Source of the DNA: Bacilliculturomica massiliensis
GTDB lineage: Bacteria > Bacillota > Clostridia > Peptostreptococcales > Anaerovoracaceae
Assembly: GCF_900605495.1 (NCBI RefSeq)
Contig: NZ_LR027603.1
Coordinates: forward strand, 1,427,997-1,491,996
Reading direction: 5' to 3'
Length of the DNA stretch: 64,000 nucleotides
The notes below the pieces were generated by a model, which saw only the letters and a list, made by a program, of their open reading frames with translations, was not told the DNA's origin and made no database searches. The position numbers were made by a program, and so were the translations under genes. Within the stretch, counting starts at the first letter, position 1. Each line of letters starts with the position of its first letter. Positions 3,741 to 20,919 of this stretch are shown here, piece after piece.

Positions 3741-3778
3741 CAGCGCGCTGTATGAGCCTGACTTTTGACCGACCCGTT

Positions 3779-3812
3779 AAAAACCCCGCGGCCTGCCGTG
3801 ACCGCGGGGTTT
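3779..3812 (+). terminator. Rho-independent terminator after the LysM gene
   Basis: AACCCCGCGG at 3781-3790 pairs perfectly with CCGCGGGGTT at 3801-3810, flanked by A residues before and T residues after. It lies 40 bp past the stop codon. Confidence 0.85.
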
Positions 3813-17843: not shown

Positions 17844-19865
17844 TTACGCCGCACTTCTTGACGCAGAATTTGATTCCAGCTCGTATTCCGCAGCCAGACG
17901 GCGATTGGTTCTCCGGATCAGATAAATGATCACAGCCGCCATGGCGAGAACCGCCGTCAGTCCGGGAACAAATCCGCCTCCTACCGTGCCGGTGGCGGCC
18001 AGCGTACCGATCTGATAGACCAGAAAACCCGCAGCATATCCGACGCCAAGCTGCAGACCGATGCCGCCCCAGAGCCACTTGGCACTCTTCATTTCAGAAT
18101 TCATTGCGCCGATGGCGGCAAAGCAGGGAGGCGTGAACAGATTGAACATCAGGTAGGCCAGCGCGGCCGCTTTGGTCAGACCGAACACGGCGGCAACGCT
18201 GGAACCCGCCCCATCCATCAACGCCAGCTCATCCGTATTGATGAAGTTGGAGATACCATAGCAGACAGCCAGTGTGCCGACCACATTTTCTTTTGCGATA
18301 AACCCGGTCACCGCCGCGGCGGCCAGCTGCCACGCGTGGAAACCGACGATGGGGATCAGCAGATAGGCGAAGGGCCCTGCCACGGAGGCCAGAATGGAGG
18401 TGTTTTCCATCCCCTCTTCCACCACCTGAAGCTGCCAGTTGAAGCTCTGCATGATCTGGACCAGCGTATTGCAGACCAGAATGATCGTCCCCGCTTTGAC
18501 TATGTAGGCCCATCCCCGTCCACACATGGAGTAAAACGCGCGGATCAGACTGGGCGTCTTATATTCGGGCAGTTCAATAATAAAGTAAGACTTTCTCACC
18601 TTATAACCGGCCAGCGTATTGACGAGCAGCGCGCACGCCAGGATCAGGAATATACCCACGAAATACATCAGCGTGCCTACCCAGGAGGCGTCGGCGAAGA
18701 AGGCGCCTGCAAACAGCGCGATCACAGGAAGCTTAGCGCCGCAGGGCATGAAAGAGGTCAGCATGGCGGTGGCTCTGCGTTCACGCTCGTTGCGGATGGT
18801 CCGGCAGGCCATAACTCCGGGGATCGCACAGCCGGTGCCGATGATAAAGGGAATGACCGATTTGCCGGACAGACCTACCTTCTTGAAAATAGGATCGAGA
18901 ACCACAGTTGCCCGCGCCATGTATCCGCAGTCCTCCAGGAGCGCGATCAGGAAGTACATGACCATGACCAGCGGCAGGAAACCAATGACCGCTCCCACGC
19001 CGCCGATTATGCCGTCGACCACCAGCGACTGCAGGAAGGGAGAGGAGCTTTCCATCCATCCGCCCACCGCTTCTCCGAAGGCATCGATCCGGCCTGTCAG
19101 AAGGTCCGCAAACCAGGGACCGGCCCATGCCTGGGATATCTGAAATACCAGAAACATCACGCCGGCAAAGATGATCAGACCGATCACAGGGTTGGTCAAA
19201 ATATTGTCGATACGGTCCTGAACATTTCTTTCCTTCGTCAGCGTCCTGCGCGTCTCTACCTTGGGAACGATCCTGTTCACAAACTCAAAACGCCTGCGGT
19301 CCGCTTTTTCTACCTCATGTTTGTCGGTCAGATCCACGCCTGTCTGCACATAGGGCGCCTTCTGGCTCTTGCCTTTTAATGACACGGCTGCCTGGACCAC
19401 CTCCTCCAGTCCGCAAGCCGACGTGGAAACGGTATTTACCACAGGACAGCCCAACTGATCGGACAGCGCCACAGAATCGATACTGGTGCCCTTCTTCTCA
19501 TTGATATCGCTTTTATTCAGCGCGACGACCACCGGGACGCCCAGTTCCAGCAGCTGTGTGGTGAAAAACAGGCTGCGGCTCAGATTCGTAGCGTCTACGA
19601 TATTGATAATGACGTCCGGTCGTTCGTTTCTGACATAGCTGCTGGTGATGCTCTCCTCAGAAGTAAAGGGAGACATGGAATAAGCTCCGGGAAGATCGAC
19701 TGCCACCAGTTCCTCTCCTCCGGCGCAATAGTTTTTCTTAATGGCCGCTTCCTTCTTTTCCACGGTAACGCCCGCCCAGTTTCCCACTCGTTCGTTTCTT
19801 CCGGTAAGGGCGTTGTACATCGTCGTCTTACCGCTGTTAGGATTGCCTGCAAAAGCAATTCTCAT
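17844..19865 (-). CDS. feoB: Ferrous iron transporter FeoB
   Basis: FeoB is the inner-membrane ferrous iron permease with a cytosolic G domain. The 673-residue protein begins with G1 GNPNSGKTT (residues 7-15), then VGNWAGVTVEKKEA, G3 DLPGAYSM and G4 NKSD. The membrane part carries two Gate-type repeats with IPFIIGTGCAIPGVMACRTIRNERERR and FMPCGAKLPVIALFAG. GGAGGATC precedes the ATG. The 230-bp gap to feoA contains a third iron-box-like palindrome and a small terminator, so feoB may have its own regulated promoter. Confidence 0.96.
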   Translation of the reverse strand: MRIAFAGNPNSGKTTMYNALTGRNERVGNWAGVTVEKKEAAIKKNYCAGGEELVAVDLPGAYSMSPFTSEESITSSYVRNERPDVIINIVDATNLSRSLFFTTQLLELGVPVVVALNKSDINEKKGTSIDSVALSDQLGCPVVNTVSTSACGLEEVVQAAVSLKGKSQKAPYVQTGVDLTDKHEVEKADRRRFEFVNRIVPKVETRRTLTKERNVQDRIDNILTNPVIGLIIFAGVMFLVFQISQAWAGPWFADLLTGRIDAFGEAVGGWMESSSPFLQSLVVDGIIGGVGAVIGFLPLVMVMYFLIALLEDCGYMARATVVLDPIFKKVGLSGKSVIPFIIGTGCAIPGVMACRTIRNERERRATAMLTSFMPCGAKLPVIALFAGAFFADASWVGTLMYFVGIFLILACALLVNTLAGYKVRKSYFIIELPEYKTPSLIRAFYSMCGRGWAYIVKAGTIILVCNTLVQIMQSFNWQLQVVEEGMENTSILASVAGPFAYLLIPIVGFHAWQLAAAAVTGFIAKENVVGTLAVCYGISNFINTDELALMDGAGSSVAAVFGLTKAAALAYLMFNLFTPPCFAAIGAMNSEMKSAKWLWGGIGLQLGVGYAAGFLVYQIGTLAATGTVGGGFVPGLTAVLAMAAVIIYLIRRTNRRLAAEYELESNSASRSAA

Positions 19866-19936: not shown

Positions 19937-19952
19937 GTTAGCATTCACTAAC
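19937..19952. promoter_or_regulatory. Iron-box-like palindrome upstream of feoB
   Basis: GTTAG-CATTCA-CTAAC has the same half-sites and 6-bp centre as the two palindromes upstream of feoA. It lies 72 bp before the feoB ATG. Confidence 0.6.
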
Positions 19953-20073
19953 CCAACGTTCATAAAAAAGTTCCCTTCGAAAACTGATTCGCCCTATGGG
20001 CTCACTTTCACAAGGCAACCTTTTTTGAAACATACGGAAATATCAACGAACAATATTTCCTATACGATAAAAA

Positions 20074-20086
20074 GCCGGACGCCGGC
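20074..20086 (-). terminator. Small hairpin just after feoA
   Basis: Reading leftwards, GCCGG (20086-20082) and CCGGC (20078-20074) flank a 3-base loop and are followed by TTTTT. The 5-bp stem is short, so partial termination between feoA and feoB is likely at most. Confidence 0.45.
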
Positions 20087-20096
20087 GGCCGATCAT

Positions 20097-20309
20097 TCAG
20101 ATCAAGATGGCCGATGCCAACTGGTGATCGATGTTATACCTGCCATCCTTGACAGAGATAACGCAGCCGTTCCTGGTTCGGGAAACCACGGTGACCGGCT
20201 CGCCGCTGTAACATCCCAGCGTAAATAGAAACGAATCTAATTCTTCATCATCCGTTGCGATCTCACGAATGATATATTCCTTTCCTTCCTGTGCATAAGT
20301 CAAATCCAT
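20097..20309 (-). CDS. feoA: Ferrous iron transport protein FeoA
   Basis: FeoA is a small SH3-like cytosolic protein that supports FeoB. The 70-residue product starts MDLTYAQEGKEYIIREI and contains FLFTLGCYSGEPVTVVSRTRNGCVISVKDG compressed into one domain, the usual FeoA pattern and size. I chose the ATG at 20309, which fits the family start and has AAAGGCGG at 9 bases. An open frame continues upstream to 20375 without family similarity. Confidence 0.85.
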   Translation of the reverse strand: MDLTYAQEGKEYIIREIATDDEELDSFLFTLGCYSGEPVTVVSRTRNGCVISVKDGRYNIDHQLASAILI

Positions 20310-20394
20310 ATTGTGTATCCGCCTTTCAAACACGTTGTTGACCATAACCATTCTTTTGTCCCCTGACATTTTCATGCCGCCCCTATTGACCGGG

Positions 20395-20471
20395 AAAAAG
20401 CCCGCGGCCGCCGTTTATCGGACTATCTGACCGGAAAAAAACGTTCAGTCAATAGTTGACGGACCGCGGGC
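20395..20471 (-). promoter_or_regulatory. Attenuator-like hairpin in the feoA leader
   Basis: Reading leftwards, GCCCGCGG (20471-20464) pairs with CCGCGGGC (20407-20400). Inner pairs form between CCGT/ACGG, ACTAT/ATAGT and CTGA/TCAG, and TTTTT follows directly. It has the form of an intrinsic terminator but lies upstream of feoA and downstream of its operators, so it looks like a leader attenuator. Confidence 0.6.
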
Positions 20472-20493
20472 ATGGTTAGAATATGCTAACCAT
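20472..20493. promoter_or_regulatory. Iron-box-like palindrome 1 upstream of feoA
   Basis: ATGGTTAG-AATATG-CTAACCAT is a palindrome with perfect 8-bp arms. The GGTTAG/CTAACC halves resemble DtxR/IdeR-type metal-repressor sites. It may be transcribed, as it lies downstream of the likely -10. Confidence 0.65.
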
Positions 20494-20505: not shown

Positions 20506-20529
20506 AAGGGTTAGTATAAGCTAACCCTT
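20506..20529. promoter_or_regulatory. Iron-box-like palindrome 2 overlapping the feoA promoter
   Basis: AAGGGTTAG-TATAAG-CTAACCCTT has perfect 9-bp arms. Reading leftwards, TGCAAA, a 17-bp spacer and TATACT place a likely promoter across this site, so a bound repressor would block RNA polymerase. Its centre is 35 bp from palindrome 1. Confidence 0.65.
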
Positions 20530-20613
20530 TCAACATTTGCAGTTTACCACTGCGGGCGGCATTCTGTCAATACCAAACGGCCATTTTTTCTGGAATTTTT
20601 TTCACCCGTGCCG

Positions 20614-20919
20614 CTACATCCACTTGGTATCGCCGGAAGCTCCATCATAGCCGGGGTGATTGTCGAAGCGCACCACGCCCACCGGGCACTTCCCTTCCAC
20701 GGCCTCCGTCACTCTGGCGTGTCCGATGGTTCCGAAACCTCCGCAGAGCTCGATGCATTTCGCACCCTCATCGGCCGCTTTCAGCGCCTCTTCACAGGCC
20801 ATAGCGTAGTTTCCCACTCCGATGATGATCATCTCACCGTTAGCGCCCACATCCATTACCGTGCGCTGCGCTTCCTTGATATCTCCATTCACGAACATAA
20901 ACACGATCTTTCTTTTCAT
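20614..20919 (-). CDS. Small conserved-looking protein of unknown function
   Basis: The 101-residue soluble protein starts KRKIVFMFVNGDIKEAQRT and has a Gly-rich centre (MIIIGVGNYAMACEEALKAA, IELCGGFGTIGHARV). It ends in VGVVRFDNHPGYDGASG. It reads like a compact alpha/beta domain and resembles what I recall as the DUF6506 family, but I cannot confirm this. GGGAGGGAAAT precedes the ATG. It is a single gene between feoA and spoIVA with no functional context. Confidence 0.7.
   Translation of the reverse strand: MKRKIVFMFVNGDIKEAQRTVMDVGANGEMIIIGVGNYAMACEEALKAADEGAKCIELCGGFGTIGHARVTEAVEGKCPVGVVRFDNHPGYDGASGDTKWM

Follow-up and report, generated by a model that had tools for sequence, protein, structure and literature searches.

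Intrinsic (Rho-independent) terminators of leaders and attenuators carry a GC-rich base stem at a U-tract and lie between a promoter and the first gene, and the hairpin found in the feoA leader analyzed here resembles them in these traits. It differs from them in being long (72 nt) and bulged, in having a U-tract of five residues followed by CCC, and in that no antiterminator was found for it. Metal-responsive riboswitches, e.g., NiCo/czcD and yybP-ykoY, provide a second comparison, as the focal hairpin also belongs to the 5' leader of a gene for metal transport, but it is a single hairpin with no junction, and no relevant Rfam match and no relatives were found for it. A third kind of system is related to a module placed further downstream, between feoA and feoB. 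In the excerpts available of PMC10310618 and PMC4132739, the repressors CodY, CcpA, LacI, PurR and GalR are described as transcriptional roadblocks, with the stalled polymerase being cleared by Mfd or Rho. The intergenic module likewise has a putative repressor operator in the path of the elongating polymerase, whereas, compared with the roadblocks of these excerpts (PMC10310618, PMC4132739), its operator lies at a fixed spacing behind a T-tract that is often accompanied by a hairpin; in the same excerpts removal is by Mfd or Rho and not by a built-in terminator. A literature search that included parts of PMC8547445, PMC10310618, PMC4324032 and PMC4132739 found no description of the leader hairpin or of the operator-T-tract module, which is not proof of absence.

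The window (the whole 64-kb stretch of DNA that was analyzed) carries the feo locus on its minus strand, with the following features in the direction of transcription:

20614-20919, minus strand: DUF6506 gene, upstream of and co-directional with feo
20541-20570, minus strand: predicted feo promoter of the sigmaA type, TTGACA-18-TAAACT with TG ahead of the -10, 10/12 consensus matches
20509-20526, minus strand: predicted operator 1, GGTTAG-N6-CTAACC, near the expected transcription start
20474-20491, minus strand: predicted operator 2, GGTTAG-N6-CTAACC, 35 nt 3' of operator 1
20310-20472, minus strand: expanded leader stretch with the hairpin, operator-feoA distance 166 against a median of 32 nt
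20400-20471, minus strand: the focal hairpin, with bulges; in its base stem 20464-20471 pairs with 20400-20407
20422-20452, minus strand: TTGACT-19-GATAGT, a weak promoter-like pair within the hairpin, 9/12, an unsupported candidate
20395-20399, minus strand: TTTTT tract directly 3' of the base stem, then CCC
20097-20309, minus strand: feoA, FeoA domain PF04023 (E 1.6e-10), conserved start MDLTY
20069-20090, minus strand: short GC hairpin plus T5 immediately 3' of the feoA stop, terminator-like
19964-19985, minus strand: weak 7-bp hairpin (-2.6 kcal/mol) plus T6, forming the upstream half of the intergenic module shared with relatives
19937-19952, minus strand: predicted intergenic operator GTTAG-N6-CTAAC, its TTAG beginning 12 nt past the T6
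17844-19865, minus strand: feoB, PF02421 (E 3.2e-56), PF07670 and PF07664

A FeoB-associated Cys-rich protein (PF12669) is encoded 3' of feoB. The start of feoA was placed at the ATG at 20309, 85 nt past the TTTTT tract (20399-20395), because the proteins of the relatives align from the M of MDLTY and their leaders end at that ATG. An in-frame ATG at 20375, with AGGGG nearby, would give FeoA an N-terminal extension of 22 residues (20375-20310) that the relatives lack. The terminator scan listed no terminator between the DUF6506 gene and the feo promoter.

The inverted repeat TTAG-N6-CTAA, which we take to be an operator of the DtxR family (iron/manganese), lies here at iron genes, and the genome also encodes a regulator of this family, with a single match to PF02742 (DtxR/MntR C-terminal; E 1.4e-14); on these grounds the repeats are predicted operators, and iron control of feo would be exerted at them by a DtxR-family protein. 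The protein with this match is a 133-aa DtxR/MntR-like frame located directly 3' of a transporter-like gene (L123, 1312-1713). The pattern GTTAG-N6-CTAAC was found at only six places in the 4.5-Mb genome, the reversed control pattern at none. The focal leader has two of these sites and the feoA-feoB gap a third; a second feoAB pair is preceded by one, and a gene that we presume to be DUF2325-like by the other two, which suggests a very small iron regulon. The sites outside the focal locus lie at L120 1022-3518 and L121 2428-2869, with the second feoAB pair and the DUF2325-like gene. This second pair has a leader of around 220 nt past its operator (L120, 1020-1262), with a modest fold (z -1.69), in which Rfam gave no relevant match.

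The earlier note on this DNA had pointed to an 8-bp GC base stem and a TTTTT tract between the operators and feoA, and these were confirmed at 20471-20395 of the minus strand: the base stem has 8 bp, all of them GC, in which GCCCGCGG (20471-20464) is perfectly paired with CCGCGGGC (20407-20400), and above it the pairing goes on with bulges. Its claim that the pairing was too extended for chance also held, as the minus-strand fold of the 111 nt around the hairpin reached -41.9 kcal/mol (z -4.03), a value equalled by 0 of 200 shuffles, and an 8-bp stem abutting a T-run appeared in only 17 of 20,000 shuffled feoA leaders. The entire 226-nt leader gave a z of -3.83. The plus strand has a near-equal fold at this place (z -3.96) but no T-run 3' of the stem, and therefore only the feo direction is terminator-like. 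Perfect 8-bp stems abutting T5 or longer were found at six places in the window, both strands included, against a mean of 0.2 in shuffled windows (n = 30), and several of the other five resemble gene-end terminators (e.g., 26790/26826 and 30044). The focal hairpin thus has, beyond chance, the GC-rich stem directly at a U-tract by which intrinsic terminators are recognized.

Several features count against termination at the hairpin or would limit it. Terminators are usually shorter than its span of 72 nt, it contains a weak promoter-like pair, and its d-score, calculated with a formula attributed to d'Aubenton Carafa et al., is a marginal -4.2, just under the usual cut-off (d-score >0); the same formula gave -2.1 for the hairpin that follows feoA. 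With this d-score and a U-tract as short as T5 followed by CCC, the hairpin may terminate poorly.

The presence of the hairpin in related genomes was also studied. Only one of 349 family genomes was matched by the hairpin DNA, and only one of 346 by a covariance model built from it, in both cases the window's own, and the genus is represented by a single genome. For comparison, 109 feo loci of relatives were fetched (L004-L112). After dropping 17 without a FeoA or FeoB N-terminal match and one (L073) with a truncated feoA, 91 remained, no two of which have the same intergenic sequence. An exact leader operator was present in 70 of the 91, the last one at a median of 32 nt and a maximum of 140 nt before feoA, while in the window this distance is 166 nt. 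Terminator-like leader hairpins (T-run of at least 4 and -8 kcal/mol or better) were detected in 4 of the 91 (L018, L036, L085 and L087), the best at -12.2 against -34.6 here, in such a way that no hairpin comparable to the focal one was found in the 91 related feoA leaders. Because it has no match in the family, and because the operator-feoA distance is far above that of the relatives, the hairpin is, as judged from the sequences compared, part of a leader expansion of around 130 nt private to this lineage.

Several origins and look-alikes of the hairpin were rejected. A repeat or mobile element was discarded, as the search of its own genome found it in a single place with no second copy, plasmids and phages gave no match at E up to 1, and no exact match to a 21-base piece of the hairpin was present in viral contigs. 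A duplicated or inverted copy of the promoter was also discarded, given that the short matches that the insert shares with the promoter region scored no better than shuffled sequence, which did as well in 136 of 300 trials in direct and 71 of 300 in inverted orientation. Two look-alikes of the covariance model (window 3775-3810 and L121 4182-4225) were short GC hairpins resembling ordinary terminators.

We are about evenly inclined to believe and to doubt that the focal hairpin is a real terminator of the intrinsic type, modest, constitutive and leaky, which lowers feo output and was acquired by the lineage with the leader expansion of around 130 nt; as to its class, it is probably to be filed as a private, leaky, intrinsic-type leader terminator. 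From the feo promoter, RNA polymerase would cross the two iron-type operators and then the hairpin with its T5, where some transcripts would stop near 20395 as a leader RNA of around 140 nt, and the remainder would continue into feoA and feoB. The hairpin could also intercept read-through from the co-directional DUF6506 gene. It would act as a fixed, constitutive brake below the presumed iron-controlled promoter. Such a lineage-private terminator would reduce the output of the iron transporter, with little import beyond this organism.

The short U-tract and the d-score of -4.2 would also suit a stable structure of the 5' UTR that does not terminate appreciably, and that either protects or spaces the mRNA or arose neutrally as the leader expanded, and so would the restriction of the hairpin to one genome and the feo genes that are still intact behind it. 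We consider this rather unlikely, given that an 8-bp GC stem at a T-run is as rare by chance as the shuffled leaders indicate and that the T-run is on the feo side only. How far termination would affect the operon depends on the promoters located 3' of the hairpin. A consensus scan of the feo strand from the hairpin to feoB gave nothing good, the best candidates being poor ones at 9/12: the pair already mentioned in the hairpin, a second within feoA (TGCACA-15-TATCAT) and a third at the end of feoA (TTGGCA-17-AATGAT). Hence, termination at the hairpin would lower feoA and probably feoB, in line with the earlier claim of a terminator-like element in the path of feo transcription, able to lower the whole operon. 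Were the pair inside the hairpin (20452-20422) a second promoter, the terminator would affect only transcripts from upstream; its 9/12 matches and 19-nt spacer speak for this, but the spacer is too long, no TG extension is present, the match is one among several such in the region and in 75 of 87 feo loci the promoter is linked to the operator, making a second promoter very unlikely.

That the terminator would be constitutive was weighed against the proposal, also made in the earlier note, of an attenuator sensing a metal or a protein. The base stem has a pairing probability of 0.998-1.000 across four transcript lengths, and a single good alternative helix was found, of 8 bp, between CUAUUGAC (20455-20448) and GUCAAUAG (20390-20383), which is around 9 kcal/mol worse, has a probability near zero and lies 3' of the T-run, so that it cannot serve as a classical antiterminator. 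No complement to the 5' arm was seen when the upstream transcript was inspected by eye. A switch between two exclusive folds of comparable energy was ruled out on energy and position. A riboswitch found no support either, as Rfam gave no family in the 64-kb window at the gathering threshold and only two weak, irrelevant matches at a relaxed one, and no homologue was found in the 348 other family genomes; the attenuator proposal was therefore left unsupported. In its wider form, in which the choice between termination and read-through would fall to a metal, to a protein or to translation of the leader, it would fit the location in an iron-uptake leader, the presence of an alternative helix and a 16-codon frame (ATG 20473 to TAG 20423) that crosses the 5' arm; but no Shine-Dalgarno was found ahead of this frame, and with the position and energy of the helix and the lack of Rfam matches and relatives we regard it as improbable. 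A small regulatory RNA of around 140 nt, transcribed from the feo promoter under iron scarcity and ended by the hairpin, agrees with the suitable spacing of promoter, operators and terminator-like hairpin. No sign of a function for such an RNA was seen in the sequence data, and its absence from those 348 genomes and the lack of a comparable hairpin in the 91 related leaders make it the least probable of these readings.

In addition to the focal hairpin, which we continue to treat as a leaky terminator, the region between feoA and feoB was analyzed in the relatives. The module found there is more widely shared and is a better lead than the hairpin. An operator TTAG-N6-CTAA with at most one mismatch is present between both genes in 86 of the 91 relatives (64 exact), against 0.6 in shuffles. 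Between -19 and -8 of this operator, a run of at least T4 was found in 76 of 87 loci, the window included, against 17 of 87 at leader operators by the same criterion, with 7-9 in shuffles. Among 77 loci with a T-tract within 40 nt of the intergenic operator, 72 have its end 9-14 nt before the operator, and 38 at exactly 9 nt. A hairpin abuts this T-tract at -5 kcal/mol or better in 48 of 70 loci, where shuffles give 21%, and at -10 kcal/mol or better in 22 of 70, where shuffles give 4%. Consensus promoters (at least 9/12) precede the intergenic operator in just 2 of 87 loci, against 75 of 87 for the leader operator, the window included in the latter; this search was aimed at a feoB promoter by which silencing of the operon could be bypassed.

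The T-tract ahead of an intergenic operator that lacks a consensus promoter suggests, at the level of sequence, a repressor roadblock coupled to termination. As a tentative proposal, which we hold as possible and less than likely, the iron-loaded repressor at the feo operators of this group of Clostridia would halt the polymerase in the U-tract, in such a way that a weak terminator becomes iron-gated. At an EcoRI roadblock the polymerase halts around 14 nt short of the site, and a repressor halting it at a similar distance from the operator would leave the RNA end within the U-tract. Iron-gated termination would act between feoA and feoB and between operators 1 and 2 of two-operator leaders, with the focal hairpin as a local variation on leader termination in this genome. 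If true, an operator stalling polymerase in a U-tract would be a compact coupling of metal sensing and termination inside an operon, one that would also fix the ratio of FeoA to FeoB and release polymerase held at a roadblock with no need of Mfd or Rho. Against it, the intergenic hairpin of the window is weak (-2.6), and terminators often precede promoters in compact genomes. A weak intergenic promoter whose spacer would hold the operator is a possible alternative to a roadblock: a weak TTG(A/C)C trend was detected by the T-tract, with at least 4 matches to TTGACA at offset -11 in 23 of 86 loci. When the promoter search was widened into feoA, 33 of 86 loci had a match (16.8 in shuffles), scattered and with a cluster inside the feoA end.

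The T-tract was also examined at other operators. In two-operator leaders, a T-tract at similar spacing precedes the second operator in 13 of 16 cases (23% in shuffles), and an A-tract in 0 of 16; with a looser definition of the second operator the T-tract is present in 14 of 26 (17% in shuffles). The window is omitted from the two-operator count because the leader sequence used for it is one base short in the -35; between its leader operators it has A6 and no T-tract, and so counts against the pattern. Operators in the path of the polymerase tend to carry a T-tract just upstream, and the promoter operator does not. Across 297 genomes of the order, TTTTT was found 8-11 nt before an operator in 90 genomes and AAAAA in 38, and among 30 loci drawn from the order-wide T-tract matches, several lie before what we take, by eye, to be feoB, and others before presumed DUF2325-like genes and transporters.
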